NCBI RefSeq assembly: GCF_034479375.1
Contig: NZ_CP140155.1
Location: forward strand, 186,001 to 250,000
DNA: 64,000 nt
Direction of reading: 5' to 3'
From: Rhodopseudomonas palustris
GTDB lineage: Bacteria > Pseudomonadota > Alphaproteobacteria > Rhizobiales > Xanthobacteraceae
Below the pieces are notes generated by a model. That model was given only the letters and a program-made list of their open reading frames with translations. It was not told the origin of the DNA and searched no databases. The position numbers were made by a program, and so were the translations under genes. This document shows, one piece after another, positions 7,097 through 60,973 of this stretch (position 1 is the stretch's first letter; each line of letters opens with the position of its first letter).

Positions 7097-8344
7097 ATGA
7101 ATTTCGACGATACCCCGCAGGAAGCCGAATTCCGCGCGCAGGCGCGCGCCTGGATCGACGCCAACGCGCCGAAACAATACGAAGAGGAACTGCGCAAGGC
7201 GTCGCTTGGCCGCGTTGTGCTGAAAGGCGCCAACATCCTCGAGGTCGCCAAGGCCTGGCAGAAGAAGAAAGCCGACGCCGGCTGGGCCGTGCCGCATTGG
7301 CCGAAGGAATATGGCGGGCGTGGTGCGTCGCCTATCGAGCGGGTGATCTGGCAGCAGGAAGAGGGCGTGTTCGGCAAGCTCACCGCGATGTTCATCATCG
7401 GCCAGGGCATGTGCGGCCCGACGATGATGGCCTACGCCAGCGAAGAGCAGAAACGGCACTATCTGCCGCCGCTCGGCTCCGGCGAAAAAGTGTGGTGCCA
7501 GTTGTTCTCCGAACCCGCCGGCGGCTCCGACGTCGCGGGCCTGCGCACCCGCGCCGAGAAGGATGGCAACGACTGGGTCATCAACGGCCAGAAGATCTGG
7601 ACCTCCGGCGCGCACTACTCGGATTACGGCATCCTGATCACCCGCACCGACCCGACCGTGCCCAAGCACAAGGGTCTGACGATGTTCTTCCTCGACATGA
7701 AGAGCAAGGGCGTCGAGATCAAGCCGATCAAGCAGGCCAACGGCAATTCCGACTTCAACGAGGTTTATTTCACCGACGTGCGGATCCCGGACAGCCAGCG
7801 GCTCGGGAATATCGGCGACGGCTGGAACGTGTCGCTGACCACGCTGATGAACGAGCGGATGTCGATCGGCGCCAATGTCGCGACCGGTTTTCCTGAGCTG
7901 TTCGAATTCTGCAGTTCATTGATGCTCGACGGCGGCCCCGCGATCGAGGATCGCGCAGTCCGGAGCAAGCTCGCCAATTGGGCGGTGCGGGCGAGTGGAT
8001 TGAGATACACCAGCTTCCGCGCGATTTCGGCGCTGTCCCGCGGCGAACGGCCGGGGCCGGAAAATTCGATCGGCAAGCTGGTCGCAGGATCGATGATCCA
8101 GGACGTCGCGATGTACGCGCTCGACCTGCAGGGCGCCGGCGGCGTGCTGAGCGGACCCGAGGATGCGGAGGTCGCCGGCAAATTCCAGGCGATGCTGCTG
8201 CGCTCGCCGGCGACGCGCGTCGAGGGCGGCACCGACGAGATCCTGCGCAACATCATCGCCGAGCGCGTGCTCGGCCTGCCCGGCGACATCCGCGTCGACA
8301 AGGACGTGCCGTTCAACCAGATCCCGACGCGGGGACGGGCGTAG
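7097..8344 (+). CDS. Acyl-CoA dehydrogenase, large subunit type (PimC-like), copy 1
   Basis: A 415-residue acyl-CoA dehydrogenase with the FAD/substrate block LFSEPAGGSDVAGLRTRAE near residue 138, NGQKIWTSGAHYSDYG near 165 and the C-terminal GGTDEILRNIIAERVLGLPGD. This C-terminal signature marks the subgroup that forms heterotetramers with a shorter subunit. It is very similar along its length to the next gene (opening MNFDDTPQEAEFRA and closing FNQIPTRGR in both), so the two are tandem paralogues. GGAAAGG provides the ribosome-binding site. Probable role: alpha-beta dehydrogenation of the pathway's acyl-CoA. Confidence 0.88.
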   Translation: MNFDDTPQEAEFRAQARAWIDANAPKQYEEELRKASLGRVVLKGANILEVAKAWQKKKADAGWAVPHWPKEYGGRGASPIERVIWQQEEGVFGKLTAMFIIGQGMCGPTMMAYASEEQKRHYLPPLGSGEKVWCQLFSEPAGGSDVAGLRTRAEKDGNDWVINGQKIWTSGAHYSDYGILITRTDPTVPKHKGLTMFFLDMKSKGVEIKPIKQANGNSDFNEVYFTDVRIPDSQRLGNIGDGWNVSLTTLMNERMSIGANVATGFPELFEFCSSLMLDGGPAIEDRAVRSKLANWAVRASGLRYTSFRAISALSRGERPGPENSIGKLVAGSMIQDVAMYALDLQGAGGVLSGPEDAEVAGKFQAMLLRSPATRVEGGTDEILRNIIAERVLGLPGDIRVDKDVPFNQIPTRGRA

Positions 8345-8361
8345 CTCGCCCCAAGTACGAA

Positions 8362-8465
8362 CCTCATCCTGAGGAGCCCGGCTTAGCCGGGCGTCTCGAA
8401 GGATGAGATGAAGATGAACAACTCATGGTTCGAGACGCGCGCGTTGCGCGCTCCTCACCATGAGG
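8362..8465. repeat. Palindromic intergenic repeat, family A
   Basis: Starts CCTCATCCTGAGGAGCCC and ends GCTCCTCACCATGAGG, with the same inner arms as the element at 6962. It separates the two paralogous large-subunit dehydrogenases. Confidence 0.85.
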
Positions 8466-8491
8466 GCAGTGCCGATTGAGAGGAAGCCACG

Positions 8492-9736
8492 ATGAATTTC
8501 GACGACACCCCGCAGGAAGCCGAGTTTCGCGCCGAGGCTCGCGCGTGGATCGACGCCAACGCGCCGAAGCAGTACGAAGAGGAACTGACGAAGTCCGGTC
8601 TCGGCCGCATCAGCCTGAAGAACGCCGACATCGTCGAGGTCGGCAAGGCGTGGCAGAAGAAGAAGGCCGAGGGTGGCTGGTCGTGCCTGACCTGGCCGAA
8701 GGAGTATGGCGGCCGCAGCGCGACGCCGATCGAGAAGGTGATCTGGCAGCAGGAAGAGGGCGTCTACAGCAAGCTGACGCAGCCGTTCCAGATCGGCGAG
8801 GGCATGTGCGGCCCGACCGTGATGGCCTATGGCGGCGAAGACGACAAGCGCAAATATCTGCCGAAACTCGCCTCCGGCGAAAACATCTGGTGCCAGTTGT
8901 TTTCCGAGCCCGCCGGCGGCTCCGACGTCGCCGGTCTGCGCACGCGAGCCGAGAAAGACGGCGACGACTGGATCATCAACGGCCAGAAGATCTGGACCTC
9001 CGGCGCGCATTATTCCGACTACGGCCTGCTGATCACCCGCACCGACCCGAATGTGCCGAAGCACAAGGGCCTCACCATGTTCTTCCTCGACATGAAGAGT
9101 GCGGGCGTCGAGGTGAAACCGATCAAGCAGGCCAACGGCATGCAGGAATTCAACGAGGTATTCTTCACCAATGTGCGGATTCCCGACTCGCAGCGGCTCG
9201 GAAATATCGGCGACGGCTGGAACGTGTCGCTGACCACGCTGATGAACGAGCGGATGTCGATCGGTGCGCGGCTCGCCACCGGCTTCCCGGAGATCTTCGA
9301 ACTGTGCACCAATCTCGTCACCGCCGATGGCCTTGCGATCGACGATTCCGCCGTGCGGAGCAGGCTCGCGAACTGGGCGGTGAAGGCCAGCGGCCTGAAG
9401 TACACCTCCTATCGCTCGATTTCGGCGCTGTCGAAGGGCGAACGGCCGGGCCCGGAGAATTCGATCGGCAAGCTGGTCGCAGGCCCGATGCTGCAGGACA
9501 TCGCCGCCTTCGCGATGGATCTCGAAGGCGCGGCGGGCGCCTTCACCGATCCGGCCGAGGCTGAAGCCGGCGGCAGCTTCCAGGCGATGCTGCTCGGCTC
9601 GCCCTCGATGCGCATTGCGGGAGGCACCGACGAAATCCTGCGCAACATCATCGCCGAACGCGTGCTGGGCCTGCCCGGCGACATCCGCGTCGACAAGGAC
9701 GTGCCGTTCAACCAGATCCCGACGCGGGGGCGGTGA
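8492..9736 (+). CDS. Acyl-CoA dehydrogenase, large subunit type (PimC-like), copy 2
   Basis: A 414-residue paralogue of the preceding gene; by eye the large majority of residues match. It keeps LFSEPAGGSDVAGLRTRAE, NGQKIWTSGAHYSDYG and GGTDEILRNIIAERVLGLPGD. Differences cluster in the substrate side (for example TQPFQIGEGMCGPTVMAYGG against TAMFIIGQGMCGPTMMAYAS) and around residues 265-290, which could mean different acyl preferences with a shared small subunit. The ribosome-binding site is GAGAGGAAG. The intervening family A repeat is also duplicated between the ACAD genes, which fits tandem duplication of a gene-plus-repeat unit. Confidence 0.88.
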   Translation: MNFDDTPQEAEFRAEARAWIDANAPKQYEEELTKSGLGRISLKNADIVEVGKAWQKKKAEGGWSCLTWPKEYGGRSATPIEKVIWQQEEGVYSKLTQPFQIGEGMCGPTVMAYGGEDDKRKYLPKLASGENIWCQLFSEPAGGSDVAGLRTRAEKDGDDWIINGQKIWTSGAHYSDYGLLITRTDPNVPKHKGLTMFFLDMKSAGVEVKPIKQANGMQEFNEVFFTNVRIPDSQRLGNIGDGWNVSLTTLMNERMSIGARLATGFPEIFELCTNLVTADGLAIDDSAVRSRLANWAVKASGLKYTSYRSISALSKGERPGPENSIGKLVAGPMLQDIAAFAMDLEGAAGAFTDPAEAEAGGSFQAMLLGSPSMRIAGGTDEILRNIIAERVLGLPGDIRVDKDVPFNQIPTRGR

Positions 9737-33151: not shown

Positions 33152-33296
33152 GTGTCCCGGGCGCGATGCGGCACGCAGTGCCGCTTCGCAGAACCGGGAT
33201 CCCGGTCGAGAGTTCGTTGAAACAAGCGGGGCCCCGATCAGCAGCGCATCACGCCGCAAGGGCGGCGCGCTGCGCAGCATCCGGGGCACGTCGTTG
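33152..33296. repeat. Palindromic intergenic repeat, family C, copy 1
   Basis: Begins GTGTCCCGGGCGCGATGCGG then CACGCAGTGCCGCTTCGCAG and an AACCGGGATCCCGGT block. The same phrases recur at 34851 in the same order. It fills the gap between hpaI and the UxaA-family gene. Confidence 0.75.
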
Positions 33297-55580: not shown

Positions 55581-57545
55581 ATGAATTTCGGCAATACCAA
55601 TCCGGGTGCGGAGCGCGGCAGGACGCTCGACGCCTCGATCGATGCGGCGCGCGCCGCGCTTCTCGGCTATCGGCGCGATGACGGCCATTGGGTATTCGAG
55701 CTCGAGGCCGATTGTACCATTCCGGCCGAATACGTTCTGCTGCGGCACTATCTCGGCGAGCCGGTCGACGCCGTGCTGGAGGGCAAGATCGCCGTCTATC
55801 TGCGGCGGACCCAGGGCGCGCATGGCGGCTGGCCGCTGGTGCACGACGGCGAGTTCGACATCAGCGCGACGGTGAAGGCCTATTTCGCCCTGAAGATGAT
55901 CGGCGACAGCATCGACGCGCCGCATATGGCGCGGGCGCGCGAAGCGATCCTGTCGCGCGGCGGCGCCATCCACGTCAACGTGTTCACGCGGTTTCTGCTG
56001 TCGATGTTCGGCATCCTGACCTGGCGCAGCGTGCCGGTCCTGCCGGTCGAGATCATGCTGCTGCCGATGTGGGCGCCGTTCCACCTCAACAAGATCTCGT
56101 ACTGGGCGCGCGCCACGATCGTGCCGCTGATGGTGCTGGCGGCGGTGAAGCCGCGCGCCGTCAACAAACTCGATATCGGGCTCGATGAACTGTTCCTGCA
56201 GGACCCGCAATCGATCGGCATGCCGGCCAAGGCGCCGCATCAGAGCTGGGGGCTGTTCACGCTGTTCGGCTCGATCGACGCGGTGCTGCGGGTGATCGAG
56301 CCGCTGATCCCGAAGAAGCTGCGCAATTACGCCATCGGTCGCGCCGTCGCCTGGGTCGAGGAGCGGCTGAACGGCGAGGATGGGCTCGGCGCGATCTATC
56401 CGCCGATGGCCAACACCGTGATGATGTACAAGGTGCTCGGCTATGGCGAGGACCATCCGCCGCGTGCCATCACCCGGCGCGGAATCGAACTGCTGCTGGT
56501 GATCCACGACGACGAGGCCTACTGCCAGCCCTGCGTGTCGCCGATCTGGGACACCGCGCTGACCTGCCATGCGCTGCTGGAGTCAGGTGGCGCCGATGCG
56601 GTCGGGCCGATGCGGGGCGGGCTCGACTGGCTGGTGCCGAAGCAGGTGCTCGACCTCAGGGGCGACTGGGCGGTGAAGGCCCCCAATGTCCGGCCCGGTG
56701 GCTGGGCGTTCCAGTACAACAACGCGCATTACCCCGATCTGGACGACACCGCGGTGGTGGTGATGGCGCTCGACCGCGCCCGCCGCGACCAGCCGAGTGC
56801 CGCCTACGACAATGCGATCGCGCGTGGCCGCGAGTGGATCGAGGGGATGCAGAGCGACGATGGCGGCTGGGCTGCCTTCGATGTGAACAACACCGAGTAT
56901 TATTTGAACAATATCCCGTTCTCGGACCACGGCGCGATGCTCGACCCGCCGACCGAGGACGTGACCGCCCGCTGCGTCTCGATGCTGGCGCAGCTCGGCG
57001 AGACCCCGGAGACCAGCCCGGCGCTGGCGCGAGGCGTCGCCTATCTGCGCAAGACCCAGCTCGCCGAAGGCTCGTGGTACGGCCGCTGGGGCATGAACTA
57101 CATCTACGGAACATGGTCGGTGCTGTGCGCGCTGAATGCCGCCGGCGTCGACCATCAGGATCCGGCGATGCGCAAGGCGGTCGACTGGCTGGCGTCGGTT
57201 CAGAACGCCGACGGCGGCTGGGGCGAGGACGCGGTCAGCTATCGGCTCGACTACAGGGGCTACGAAAGTGCATCGTCCACGGCGTCGCAAACGGCATGGG
57301 CTTTGCTAGCATTGATGGCTGCCGGGGAAGTCGATCATCCGGCGGTGGTGCGCGGGGTTGAGTACCTAAAAACCACACAGACCGAAAAAGGCGTGTGGGA
57401 CGAGCAGCGCTACACCGCTACAGGCTTTCCGCGGGTGTTTTATCTGCGATATCATGGCTACTCAAAGTTCTTTCCGCTCTGGGCGATGGCGCGGTACCGG
57501 AATTTGAGAGCCACGAACAGCAAGGTCGTAGGGGTCGGAATGTGA
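55581..57545 (+). CDS. shc: Squalene-hopene cyclase
   Basis: A 654-residue class II triterpene cyclase (HpnF) turning squalene into hopene and diplopterol at the inner membrane. The catalytic DxDDTA motif is at 386-391 (DLDDTA), with D388 as general acid. Several QW repeats are visible (for example QNADGGWGED near 545 and QSDDGGWAAFD near 430), along with the C-terminal TGFPRVFYLRYHGYSKFFPL block. Length is normal. The stop overlaps the hpnG GTG start (GTGA). Confidence 0.96.
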   Translation: MNFGNTNPGAERGRTLDASIDAARAALLGYRRDDGHWVFELEADCTIPAEYVLLRHYLGEPVDAVLEGKIAVYLRRTQGAHGGWPLVHDGEFDISATVKAYFALKMIGDSIDAPHMARAREAILSRGGAIHVNVFTRFLLSMFGILTWRSVPVLPVEIMLLPMWAPFHLNKISYWARATIVPLMVLAAVKPRAVNKLDIGLDELFLQDPQSIGMPAKAPHQSWGLFTLFGSIDAVLRVIEPLIPKKLRNYAIGRAVAWVEERLNGEDGLGAIYPPMANTVMMYKVLGYGEDHPPRAITRRGIELLLVIHDDEAYCQPCVSPIWDTALTCHALLESGGADAVGPMRGGLDWLVPKQVLDLRGDWAVKAPNVRPGGWAFQYNNAHYPDLDDTAVVVMALDRARRDQPSAAYDNAIARGREWIEGMQSDDGGWAAFDVNNTEYYLNNIPFSDHGAMLDPPTEDVTARCVSMLAQLGETPETSPALARGVAYLRKTQLAEGSWYGRWGMNYIYGTWSVLCALNAAGVDHQDPAMRKAVDWLASVQNADGGWGEDAVSYRLDYRGYESASSTASQTAWALLALMAAGEVDHPAVVRGVEYLKTTQTEKGVWDEQRYTATGFPRVFYLRYHGYSKFFPLWAMARYRNLRATNSKVVGVGM

Positions 57546-58300
57546 TTCTGGGGGCTAGGGGCGACGCGGCCGCGGAGCGAGATCCGCGACCGGTTCTGAT
57601 TGTGACGGGGCTGATCCAGGAAGCGAAAATCGCTGAAGGGCCGGGTCTCACGGTCATCTGCAGCAGTAGCGATCCGAAGCAGTTGCGCCGGATGATGGCG
57701 AGCTTCGATGCGTCGTCGATCCGCGGCGTCATCAGCTTCGGCGTCGCCGGCGGGCTCGATCCGTCGCTGAAAGCCGGTGATGTCGTGATCGCGACCCAGG
57801 TTGTGGCGGGTGAACGTCGCTGGGCCTCGGAAGTTTCCTTGAGCGACGAATTATTGCGAAGCGCCGGACTTGGACGCCAGCGCGTGGTGCGCGGCGGTCT
57901 GGTCGGGGCGGAGCAGGTCGTGGCGGCGCGTGCCGCCAAGGCCCTGCTGCACCTGGAGACTGGCGCGGCCGCAGTCGACATGGAAAGCCACATCGCCGCC
58001 GATTACGCCGAAGCGGCCAGGCTGCCGTTCGCCGCGTTGCGCGTGATCAGCGATCCGGCCAGCCGCAGCCTGCCGCAGATGGTGTCCACCGCGATCAAGC
58101 CGAACGGCGATATCGACCTGCGCAAGGTTCTGAGTGGGCTGGCGCGTCACCCGACGTCGATCCGGTCGCTGGTCTCGACCGGAATCGACTTCAATCGGGC
58201 GCTCCGCAGCCTGCGCGGCTGCCGCAGCTTCGTGCTTGACGCCGTGATTGGCGGCGGCGGCGGCAGCAGCAGCGGCGGCCTCGTCGCGGCGGATCTCTGA
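57542..58300 (+). CDS. hpnG: Adenosylhopane nucleosidase/phosphorylase HpnG, with aberrant C-terminus
   Basis: A 252-residue nucleoside phosphorylase-fold protein that removes adenine from adenosylhopane, leading to ribosylhopane and bacteriohopanetetrol. Family blocks are VLIVTGLIQEAKIAEGPGL, RGVISFGVAGGLDPSLKAGDVVIATQV and AAAVDMESHIAADYAEAARLPFAALRVISDPA. The GTG start overlaps the shc stop. The last about 16 codons (GGGGGSSSGGLVAADL) and the stop itself are supplied by sequence that is antisense to a duplicated hpnH 3' end (see the remnant at 58275), so the natural C-terminus has probably been replaced. Confidence 0.9.
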   Translation: MILGARGDAAAERDPRPVLIVTGLIQEAKIAEGPGLTVICSSSDPKQLRRMMASFDASSIRGVISFGVAGGLDPSLKAGDVVIATQVVAGERRWASEVSLSDELLRSAGLGRQRVVRGGLVGAEQVVAARAAKALLHLETGAAAVDMESHIAADYAEAARLPFAALRVISDPASRSLPQMVSTAIKPNGDIDLRKVLSGLARHPTSIRSLVSTGIDFNRALRSLRGCRSFVLDAVIGGGGGSSSGGLVAADL

Positions 58301-58358
58301 CAGCGTCTTCTGGACCTGATCAGGAAGTCCACTGAGCAGGCCGCAGCTTTGTCAGATC
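58275..58358 (-). pseudogene. Remnant of an hpnH 3' end, overlapping hpnG and followed by an S41 peptidase gene
   Basis: Bases 58275-58318 match 59859-59902 in the intact hpnH at 43 of 44 positions, and weaker similarity continues to about 58358. Read on the - strand it encodes (D)QVQKTLSEIRRDEAA as in HpnH. Upstream, separated by a frameshift and stop, is LDLTKLRPAQW against HpnH IDLSNQRPAQY. It is a decayed, frameshifted copy of the hpnH tail with no start or catalytic region. Confidence 0.8.
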
Positions 58359-58621
58359 CAAGGCCGGACCGCGCCAGCGACTTCGGTCGGGTGTAAGGCG
58401 CGGCTTGGCCTCGCGGTTCGGTGATCGATTGTCGCCGACACGGGATCCCCCTCGATCGCCTCGGATTGCAGATCTTGAAAGGCCGTTTGGCGAGACGCGT
58501 GTGCGGCATTGGCTGACTGCGGCTCATCGGTGCTTTTCGAATTGTGAGGGTCGGGTATGGCCCAATGCCGATAACGGCGTCATAAATTGGCCCCGGAACG
58601 GGCGCTCACTGCGGTGAGTTT
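58359..58621. other. Gap between the hpnH remnant and the S41 peptidase gene
   Basis: No gene is evident. Traces of hpnH similarity fade within about the first 30 bases (GP(A)LDL register). The rest is unremarkable sequence with more A/T than the hopanoid genes, ending in the CGGTGAG sequence before the GTG start. Confidence 0.5.
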
Positions 58622-59644
58622 GTGAACAGCAGAAAGATCCAGATGCTGTCTCCGCGGTCGTCCTTCCTCATTTCGTGCGTCGCGACCATTGCCGCGATCG
58701 TCACGGTGGCATCCACCGCAAATGCCGAGCTGGTTTCCGTTAGCGCCAAGCACTCGTCATTGGATCGGACAACCGTAAGTAAGGTGATCGGCGGCATCGC
58801 GCTCGAATTGCGGGAAGGCTATGTTTTCCCCCATTTGGGAGTGCAGGCGGCGGATGCCGTGGAGAAGGCATTGAGAGACGACGTCTATGCTGGCGTCACC
58901 GATCCAGCGACGTTCGCGCAGCAACTGACCGAACAACTCCGCGCGATCACCAAGGATACCCATATGCGGGTGATCTTTGGCTCGCCGTTCGGCAGTCAGC
59001 CTCCGCCTGCCGCGCCGCAGGATGCCGGTTTCGAAGTGAAGCGGCTGGAGGGAAATGTCGGATACATTCACTTGGCGCGGTTTGTTCCGCCCGAGATTTT
59101 CAGGCCCGCTGCTGACGAAGCCATGCGCGGTTTGGTTGATACTGCGGCGCTCATCATCGATATGCGGGACAATGGCGGCGGACATCCGGCATCCGTGGCC
59201 TACCTGATCAGTTTCCTGCTCGACCCGGCCAAGCGTGTTCATATCAACGATCTGATCTGGCGAAATCGGGGGATGTCGACGTTCAGAACGGAATCGTTCT
59301 GGAGTTCTCCGACTCCGGTGAACTATATCGGCAAGCCCGTCTATGTCCTGGTTGGGCCGAAGACCTATTCGGCGGGAGAGGAATTTGCCTACGATGCGCA
59401 AGCGCTCCATTGCGCGACTGTCATCGGCGAAAGAACCCGCGGCGGAGCAAACCCGGGCGGTCTGAAAGACCTTGGTTCCGATCTGTTCGTGGTCGTGCCG
59501 ACTGGAAGGGCGGAAAACCCGGTTACGCACGGCAATTGGGGCGGGATCGGTGTGCGGCCCGACGTTCAGGCTACGCTCGAAGCCACCAAGGAAGTTGCCG
59601 TCGCGATGGCGAAGGGCCAACCCGCTCCACCAACGGCGCAGTGA
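58622..59644 (+). CDS. S41-family (C-terminal processing/IRBP-type) peptidase, exported
   Basis: A 340-residue protein with an N-terminal signal peptide (about 1-36, ending ASTANA). Its S41 domain has the nucleophile S250 in GPKTYSAGEEFAYDAQAL, preceded by LIIDMRDNGGGHPASV and followed by GERTRGGANPGG and GNWGGIGVRPDV. An N-terminal helical S41 subdomain precedes it, and no PDZ domain is visible, as in the IRBP-like branch. Base use is clearly less GC-rich than the flanking hopanoid genes and it interrupts the hopanoid locus, so it was probably acquired. An alternative start is the ATG at 58643. Confidence 0.83.
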   Translation: MNSRKIQMLSPRSSFLISCVATIAAIVTVASTANAELVSVSAKHSSLDRTTVSKVIGGIALELREGYVFPHLGVQAADAVEKALRDDVYAGVTDPATFAQQLTEQLRAITKDTHMRVIFGSPFGSQPPPAAPQDAGFEVKRLEGNVGYIHLARFVPPEIFRPAADEAMRGLVDTAALIIDMRDNGGGHPASVAYLISFLLDPAKRVHINDLIWRNRGMSTFRTESFWSSPTPVNYIGKPVYVLVGPKTYSAGEEFAYDAQALHCATVIGERTRGGANPGGLKDLGSDLFVVVPTGRAENPVTHGNWGGIGVRPDVQATLEATKEVAVAMAKGQPAPPTAQ

Positions 59645-59752
59645 CAGAACGGTGTCGGCCTGCGGGTCGCATCTCTGCGGTGCCGCGTCTCGAAAGAACG
59701 TTCGCCATTCGCGAAACGAATTTTCGATAAATTCAGATCATCAATTGCCGAC

Positions 59753-59779
59753 AAAAAACGCGGCTCGATGGCCGCGTTT
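59753..59779. terminator. Terminator for hpnH (bidirectional)
   Basis: A 9-base stem AAACGCGGC/GCCGCGTTT with a TCGATG loop. A run of six A on the left reads as a U-tract for the leftward hpnH transcript, and TTTC/TTCTT on the right serves the peptidase gene. It lies 27 bases beyond the hpnH stop. Confidence 0.8.
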
Positions 59780-59806
59780 CTTCTTGAGTGAACCGATGAC
59801 TGCAGC

Positions 59807-60973
59807 TCAGGCCGCGGTGGAGGCCTGCGGTTGCGGCTGATGCTTGGCGGCGGCCGCTGCGGCCTCGTCGCGGCGGATCTCTGACAACGTCTTCTGGACC
59901 TGCTCGGTGAAGATGTACTGAGCCGGACGCTGGTTCGACAGATCGATCTCGGGCGCCATCGGCCCCGAGGTCCGGATCCCGCGCAGCGCGACCCACGCCG
60001 CCTTCAGCGGATTGTTGAGCGACGCCGTCGCGGCGGTCGGCTCGTAGCCGCAATGCGCCATGCAGTCGGCGCACTTCTCGTATTTCCCGGTGCCGTAGGA
60101 ATCCCAGTCGGTGGTCTCCATCAGCTCCTTGAAGGTCTTGGTATAGCCTTCACCGAGCAGATAGCAGGGCTTCTGCCAGCCGAAGATGTTGCGCGCGGGC
60201 ATGCCCCAGGGGGTGCATTCGAACGACTGGTTGCCGGCCAGGAAGTCCAGGAACAGGCCGGAATGCATGAAGTTCCACTTCTTGCCCTTGCCGAGTTCGA
60301 ACACCTTGCGAAACAGGTTCTTGGTGTTGGTGCGGTTCAGGAAGTGTTCCTGATCCGGCGCCCGCTCGTAGGCGTAGCCCGGTGACATCGAGACGCCGAC
60401 GCCCAGCTCCGCGGTGAGGTCGAGGAATTTGGCGATCTCTTCGGCCGGATGGTTGTCGAAGATCGTCGCATTGACGTTGACGGTGAAGCCCTTGGCCCTG
60501 GCCGCCTTGATCGCCTTCAGCGCGCGGTCGAACGTGCCGGGCTGCGACACCGCCTTGTCGTGGTGCTCCTTGAGGCCGTCGAGATGCACCGAGAAGAACA
60601 GATAGGGCGAGGGCTCGAACAGATGCAGCTTCTTCTCGAGCAGCAACGCGTTGGTGCACAGCGACACGAATTTCTTGCGCGCCACCAGGCCACGCACGAT
60701 CTCACCGATCTCGCGATGGATCAGCGGCTCGCCGCCGGGGATCGCCACCATCGGCGCGCCGCATTCTTCGGCCGCGTCCCAGCATTCCTGTGCACTCATG
60801 CGGCGATCCAGGATGGCGTCGGGATAGTCGATCTTGCCGCAGCCGACGCAGGCGAGGTTGCAGCGGAACAGCGGCTCCAGCATCAGCACCAGCGGGTAGC
60901 GCTTGCGGCCCAGCAGCTTCTGCTTGAGCAGATAGCCGCCGATCACCAGCTCTTTGTGAAACGGTATTGCCAT
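59807..60973 (-). CDS. hpnH: Adenosylhopane synthase HpnH (radical SAM)
   Basis: A 388-residue radical SAM enzyme that adds the 5'-deoxyadenosyl group to hopene, the first step to extended hopanoids. The cluster cysteines are C38-x3-C42-x2-C45 (CNLACVGC). A later Cys-rich tail (EKCADCMAHCGYEP) is typical of the family. The C-terminal extension (EQVQKTLSEIRRDEAAAAAAKHQ) is Ala-rich and its 3' end is duplicated next to hpnG. The ATG at 60973 (MAIPFHKELVIGG) is preferred over an upstream in-frame start. It is transcribed opposite to hpnCDEFG and follows ispH. Confidence 0.94.
   Translation of the reverse strand: MAIPFHKELVIGGYLLKQKLLGRKRYPLVLMLEPLFRCNLACVGCGKIDYPDAILDRRMSAQECWDAAEECGAPMVAIPGGEPLIHREIGEIVRGLVARKKFVSLCTNALLLEKKLHLFEPSPYLFFSVHLDGLKEHHDKAVSQPGTFDRALKAIKAARAKGFTVNVNATIFDNHPAEEIAKFLDLTAELGVGVSMSPGYAYERAPDQEHFLNRTNTKNLFRKVFELGKGKKWNFMHSGLFLDFLAGNQSFECTPWGMPARNIFGWQKPCYLLGEGYTKTFKELMETTDWDSYGTGKYEKCADCMAHCGYEPTAATASLNNPLKAAWVALRGIRTSGPMAPEIDLSNQRPAQYIFTEQVQKTLSEIRRDEAAAAAAKHQPQPQASTAA

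Follow-up and report, generated by a model that had tools for sequence, protein, structure and literature searches.

Background

Convergent genes may overlap at their tails. In a survey of 1890 convergent overlaps, the phase 123:321, in which the codon boundaries of the two strands coincide, accounted for 21% and is one of three phases, as far as the accessible part of that survey goes (PMC2174442). Related genomes may gain or lose such overlaps, as described for Salmonella and across species (PMC3843671, PMC4161906), and the gene pair treated here behaves likewise. In the portions of these two papers available to us, loss is counted or ascribed to changes of start or stop codons, with no mention of a doubling of the shared stretch, and published studies are said to have addressed the creation of overlaps and not their loss (PMC4161906, same portion). 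Here we describe the junction between the tail-to-tail genes hpnG and hpnH in a 64-kb stretch of Rhodopseudomonas palustris DNA (NZ_CP140155.1, positions 186,001 to 250,000), referred to as the window; in genome comparisons the same word denotes the genome carrying that stretch. The two enzymes catalyse consecutive pathway steps, HpnH acting before HpnG according to the accessible text of PMC12583986. We consider it probable, at roughly 0.85, that hpnG and hpnH were anciently a convergent overlapping pair and that their shared stretch has been doubled in the window, with an S41 peptidase gene in the gap.

The doubled end of hpnH

The junction comprises the following features (positions within the window):

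57542..58300, + strand: hpnG, hopanoid-associated phosphorylase (TIGR03468; GTG start set by eye)
58223..58300, - strand: old hpnH end, a relic within hpnG (SEIRRDEA...NHGVKHEAAAAA), from sequence comparison
58275..58318, + strand: repeat copy 1, 43/44 identical to copy 2
58301..58358, - strand: decaying stub of hpnH, just past the hpnG stop (DQVQKTL, and DLTKLRPAQW in a different frame), from alignment
58622..59644, + strand: S41 peptidase gene, 340 aa (PF03572)
59754..59777, - strand: hairpin with T residues behind hpnH, terminator-like (purpose-made hairpin scan, score 19; coordinates by eye)
59807..60973, - strand: hpnH, adenosyl-hopene transferase, with its separate end (KHQPQPQASTAA, stop TGA) (TIGR03470)
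59859..59902, + strand: repeat copy 2, within the hpnH end, 43/44 identical to copy 1

Bases 59859-59902 are identical to 58275-58318 at 43 of 44 positions, both on the + strand, as an earlier reading of the same DNA (hereafter the original prediction) had stated. It had also spoken of a duplicated, inverted hpnH tail; the duplication holds, but 'inverted' is not strictly apt, as these are direct repeats. A repeat finder extended the pair to 60 nt at 90% identity (58262-58321 versus 59846-59905), and blastn to 99 aligned positions at 83%, with copy 1 running from 58262 to about 58358. Only two other matches to 58200-58700 were found in the same genome, both of 27-30 nt and located in a GGC-rich run.

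The identity of the two genes is firm: HpnG matched TIGR03468 with an E-value of 1.3e-68 and 230.7 bits (curated cut-off 187.1; residues 2-211 of 236 searched), and HpnH matched TIGR03470 with 8.5e-166 and 550.7 bits (curated cut-off 225.05). The hpnG stop is the TGA at 58298-58300, exactly as predicted, and the final seven codons of hpnG, together with this stop, lie antisense to the codons for SEIRRDEA in hpnH, which confirms that hpnG ends in antisense hpnH sequence. Read on the - strand, copy 1 encodes DQVQKTLSEIRRDEAAAAAAAAAANHGVKHEAAAAA and, further up in another frame, DLTKLRPAQW; the second, decayed hpnH tail that had been proposed, including LRPAQW beyond a frameshift, is thus present. 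The stub stood out against shuffled sequences (z 11.7), and identity was 17/18 directly behind the hpnG stop and 27/42 thereafter (Fisher p 0.023). It makes up the first 58 nt of the spacer; for the remainder, 58359-58621, no match was found in the 16 genomes of the genus.

The hpnG and hpnH stops are now 1506 bp apart, so that the genes share no coding bases and only a relic of the overlap is left. In this relic (58223..58300) the hpnH stop TAG seen in two relatives (G012 and G008) has become a sense codon, and the antisense frame there is 149 codons long. Because the old hpnH stop has been lost in copy 1, a simple deletion between the repeats would not restore the arrangement found in G012. 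Between the copies lies a less GC-rich gene, as predicted (59.9%, versus 67.9% for hpnG and 63.7% for hpnH). Its product matched PF03572 with an E-value of 2e-22 and 80 bits (gathering cut-off 24) and is a predicted S41 peptidase, and no NCBIfam model scored above its cut-off.

The hpnG-hpnH junction within the genus

Matches to hpnG and hpnH were present in all 16 genomes of the genus. Both genes lay at one junction in 15 of them, the window included, and on separate contigs in G011; in G013 hpnG was incomplete, a broken fragment lying at the end of a contig. Three junctions showed a tail-to-tail overlap (72 bp in G012, 60 bp in both G001 and G003), and the remaining 12 of the 15 were apart by 265 to 4824 bp. 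In G012 a single stretch encodes both ends, SLVAADL of HpnG and SEIRRDEAAAANHGAKHEASTAA of HpnH. Copy 1 of the window corresponds to an overlap of this type, with the same HpnG ending and the same antisense HpnH ending, the stop now being sense. This match identifies copy 1 as the former overlap, the end of today's hpnH being copy 2. The HpnG tails of the window and G012 differ only in the Gly/Ser run before LVAADL, which is longer in the window (GGGGGSSSGG versus GSGS).

These comparisons bear directly on the origin of the HpnG tail. The original prediction had suggested that either an hpnH copy or an S41-bearing segment landed at hpnG, giving HpnG a new antisense C-terminal tail, and a doubled hpnH end does flank a gene of lower GC content, which speaks in favour of such an event. 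However, overlapped relatives with a single hpnH encode the same HpnG tail, and in-register remains of the overlap occur across separated genomes (see below), which leaves this explanation very improbable. The tail is not new, since G012 has the same LVAADL within its overlap, and G001, G003 and other genera overlap as well. The doubling holds, but its direction must be reversed: the hpnG end is ancestral, and the end that now stands apart is that of hpnH. The same HpnG C-terminus in strains lacking a nearby hpnH copy had been named as evidence that would speak against the proposal. Such a C-terminus does occur, although in an unexpected manner: it is found where the other strand is hpnH itself.

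The nearest relative of the window over most of the 19 kb compared is G008. There, the antisense frame inside hpnG still closes at the old hpnH stop (ANHGVKHEASTAA, then stop), and the hpnG tip (VVAEA) and the gap are of the separated type. As a separate observation, the middle of hpnG in the window (57770-57950) carries an allele unlike that of G008 (69-78% identity versus 97% just before), a small recombination tract.

The overlap across the family and order

In the overlap, about 20 last codons of each gene lie on opposite strands with coinciding codon boundaries, in a register that places the hpnG stop TGA opposite a Ser codon TCA of hpnH, and the hpnH stop TAG or TAA opposite a Leu codon CTA or TTA of hpnG. 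HpnG and HpnH were searched for across 248 family genomes, and the further counts given here are among the matches listed. From these, 68 junctions outside the genus were picked by hand to cover genera and gap sizes, and the proportions should therefore not be taken as a census. Together with the 15 junctions of the genus they gave 83 convergent pairs, 19 overlapped and 64 apart, with G050 placed among the latter solely since a stop breaks its hpnG frame. The overlaps measured 30 to 84 bp and were multiples of three in all 19 pairs; it should be underlined that relatives are not independent, and no probability is attached to this pattern. Overlapped pairs occurred in a further 12 to 13 genera within the family (g6, g8, g22, g28, g32, g33, g35, g37, g38, g40, g43 and g45). 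The 30-bp overlap of G134 lies away from the usual position, scoring 10/24 in the predicted register, and we regard it as secondary.

Within the order, HpnG matches were obtained in 12 of 61 genomes (8 above the curated cut-off) and HpnH matches likewise in 12 of 61. Ten genomes outside the family had matches, and junctions were read in the eight that carry the two genes on the same contig. Five of these eight, belonging to four other families, overlapped by 24, 30, 45, 78 and 81 bp, lengths that are likewise all divisible by three, and three were apart.

A tree of HpnG plus HpnH was built from 80 pairs, G013, G050 and G036 being left out as fragmentary or partial matches. At least nine changes between the overlapped and the separated state, G134 among them, are needed on this tree, which was a quick one without bootstraps, with a chosen outgroup that was not coherent and with genes that recombine; the direction of change was not taken from this count. 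On the deep branches, the genera g28, g32, g33, g35, g37 and g38 each contain at least one overlapped genome, which argues that the overlap is ancestral.

Fossils of the overlap in separated pairs

Descent of the separated pairs from overlapped ancestors predicts that the end of hpnG still resembles antisense hpnH in the old register. The last 24 nt of hpnG were compared with the antisense of the genome's own hpnH in the 60 of 64 separated genomes that could be scored. The mean match was 12.9/24 in the predicted register versus 6.5 (sd 2.3) in 20 other registers, with the highest scores in the window (24), G064 (22), G237 (21) and G145, G229 and G107 (20 each). Free local alignment gave z above 3.5 in 12 of the 64 separated genomes, ten of them in the predicted register as judged from the coordinates; G004 and G177 were off register.

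Moreover, the codons that face each other in the overlap differ between the two states. The hpnH stop was TGA in none of the 19 overlapped versus 35 of the 64 separated genomes of the family. The Leu codon opposite the hpnH stop was CTA or TTA in 13/13 scored overlapped but only 2/51 scored separated genomes, and the Ser/Thr codon opposite the hpnG stop was TCA in 12/14 overlapped and 6/60 separated ones. Both the window and G008 have kept TCA in hpnH. An ancestral overlap and its doubling are well supported.

Splits in other genera

Similar doublings were seen elsewhere. In G107 (g43) a 66-bp overlap is doubled, with copies identical at 55/66 positions; the hpnH copy keeps TTA at the hpnH stop, a site at which the hpnG copy has CTG. 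A relic of hpnG of about 29 nt lies directly behind the hpnH stop, the mirror image of the window, and the gap contains a strong hairpin. Its sister genomes G057 and G125 have a 66-bp overlap. In G064 (g6) a 72-bp overlap is doubled (43/72) on both sides of a 4-kb insert with TetR-like and efflux-like open reading frames (ORFs; named by eye), and G020, the other g6 genome read, has a 72-bp overlap. A 21-nt match behind the hpnG stop of G184 (z 5.3) was considered as a further stub and taken as chance, as were matches behind hpnH in G215, G041 and G177 (z 3.9-4.2), which do not adjoin the stop.

Contents of the gap and terminator-like sites

The S41 gene was present at the junction in two of the 16 genus genomes, the window and G002, which encode proteins 78% identical. 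Among the 34 loci found in a named-genome scan, 11 encode relatives at 67-79% identity, in ten alphaproteobacterial records and one titled Desulfovibrio sp. DV. These scattered relatives, the Desulfovibrio record included, suggest either transfer or a mixed assembly. The idea that the gene travels with hpnG or hpnH was dropped: at none of the 13 best of the 34 loci did either gene lie within the flanks (at most 5 kb per side). Direct repeats flanking so patchily distributed a gene could also be read as target-site duplications of a mobile element carrying it. The repeat is, however, hpnH coding sequence in frame, and its continuation is decaying; the S41 gene of G002 sits at the same junction with no hpnH stub (z -0.1), and no gene of such an element could be recognised within the gap, whose other ORFs were not searched against families. 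We regard a mobile element as very improbable.

The gap holds other cargo as well. A 3.4-kb gap block aligns among G002, G004, G006, G007, G010, G011, G014 and G015, and partly in G005; in G010 the junction block (L064:780-4400) encodes LysR-type, Phosphodiest and PBP_like_2 proteins, and the gap of G013 holds other ORFs.

With regard to termination, a purpose-made search for a hairpin plus T residues within 160 nt of the stop, at a score that shuffled sequences reach in at most about 1% of cases, found a terminator-like site on the hpnH side in 49/64 separated versus 0/19 overlapped pairs, the corresponding figures for the hpnG side being 25/64 and 0/19. In overlapped pairs these 160 nt fall within the partner's coding sequence, a circumstance that may by itself account for the absence. 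All 12 separated pairs of the genus had the hpnH-side site. A consensus scan of the window's gap gave one promoter-like site (0.4 expected by shuffling) and one terminator-like site (1.8 expected), and the hpnH hairpin was not among its sites.

Evidence weighing against an ancestral overlap and its doubling

Several observations count against the interpretation given here. A convincing hpnH stub behind the hpnG stop was found in the window only, among 64 separated pairs, and many separated genomes have no fossil above noise (G075 6, G187 7 and G215 8 of 24). In g26 the genes have separated, in at least 7 of 11 genomes, by way of a shortened HpnG that ends (ALG) before the overlap, indicating that doubling is not the sole route to separation. 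The codon mark is not absolute, since one of the five overlapped genomes outside the family (G296) has the hpnH stop TGA. In the tree, g13 and G138 are also deep branches and are apart, and the window itself nests among separated genomes, so that its ancestors may already have been apart. Finally, no allele identical to the supposed parents of the window's junction was present among the genomes compared.

How the junction may have arisen

An ancestral overlap that was later doubled offers a simple route by which the pair could part with neither protein shortened. In the window, copy 1 still forms the end of hpnG, followed by a decaying hpnH stub, and copy 2 forms the working hpnH end. The gap can then take up cargo, here the S41 gene, and hpnH has a hairpin of its own, a pattern that the separated pairs display. 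In the last step, an overlapped allele (hpnG tail plus stub) would recombine with a separated allele (hpnH tip, hairpin and S41 gene), with no extended homology at one or both of the joins, in the manner of homology-facilitated illegitimate recombination.

Three features favour such recombination between alleles over a local duplication. First, hpnG is a mosaic: its first 180 aligned nt are 97% identical to G008, the next 90 nt only 69% (G002, G009 and G014 being at 86-90%), and the last bin is closest to G012 (93%; G010 89%, G008 78%). Second, the tip, stop region and hairpin of hpnH are of the separated-allele type on a body whose codon TCA is of the overlapped type. Third, the stub has SKQR-type codons like those of G002 and G010, as opposed to the SNQR type of the working hpnH. 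Recombination between overlapped and separated alleles, in either direction, fits these features best, although we propose it tentatively, at somewhat less than even odds. Since the window nests among separated genomes, a separated ancestor that acquired an overlapped-type hpnG end would be the favoured direction.

A local duplication, in which the overlap and at least the next 60 bp of hpnH were copied in place and the S41 gene was then inserted between the copies, is possible but less probable. It would account for the 43/44 likeness of the copies and for the GGACC that the stub shares with copy 2 (GCACC in G012, GAACC in G008). Yet the same 44-mer is 43/44 identical to the hpnH of G008 and 42/44 to that of G012, so that near-identity is no mark of recent copying on the spot. 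Other separated genomes share the type of hpnH tip and hairpin found here, which, like the mosaic hpnG, counts against copying in place. As the whole story, a recent local copy is further weakened by the stub's SKQR-type codons.

Other repeats in the window

Exact 24-mers recur at three places within the window, namely in a tandem gene pair at about 7.3-9.7 kb, at 33152/34851 and in the hpnG/hpnH repeat; no inverted exact 24-mers were found within these 64 kb. The two tandem genes (7097-9736) have a spacing of 1395 bp and exactly identical stretches of 27 to 62 nt, and by eye resemble putative acyl-CoA dehydrogenase paralogues. At 33152 and 34851 there is an exact 48-nt direct repeat, 1699 bp apart.

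Comparison with known systems

Loss of a convergent overlap is a known kind of event; what we did not find described is the doubling route, and its footprint here is unusually clear. The titles and abstract openings searched, in which subscription journals are thinly covered, contained no description of an hpnG/hpnH overlap or of this route. The separation of overlapping genes has been little studied, and at this locus the genes for one pair of enzymes occur naturally as a series, from overlapped through doubled to fully separated, which makes the route and frequency of overlap loss, and its consequences for expression, open to testing. The locus further accounts for the origin of the HpnG tail, and cautions that a tail shared by proteins of several genera may merely reflect what the opposite strand encodes.

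With respect to regulation, the overlapped pairs resemble the excludon, in which convergent 3' overlaps lack a terminator (available text of PMC7154746), in that none of the 19 has a terminator-like site in the 160 nt following either stop. They differ from it in that the hpnG/hpnH arrangement is known here from sequence, and the stretches scanned are the partner's coding sequence. One could speculate that the overlap is an order-wide antisense device, in which the mRNA ends of hpnG and hpnH, having no terminator between them, would pair and balance each other; the genes would have escaped repeatedly by doubling and terminators, leaving the HpnG tail as a fossil of the opposite strand. We regard this as unlikely.

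The window also resembles type VI secretion system (T6SS) clusters of Vibrio cholerae, where a homology anchor on one side and a piece of the older gene beside the new module were reported (PMC5361080, portion available). There, the model was proposed for effector-immunity arrays, whereas the leftover here comes from the tail of an overlapping gene of the housekeeping type; homology-facilitated illegitimate recombination is the mechanism inferred in both cases. As in the convergent overlapping pairs surveyed previously (accessible part of PMC2174442), tail-to-tail genes on opposite strands share coding bases; in contrast to what that part presents, a single overlap can be traced here through overlapped, doubled and fully separated forms.

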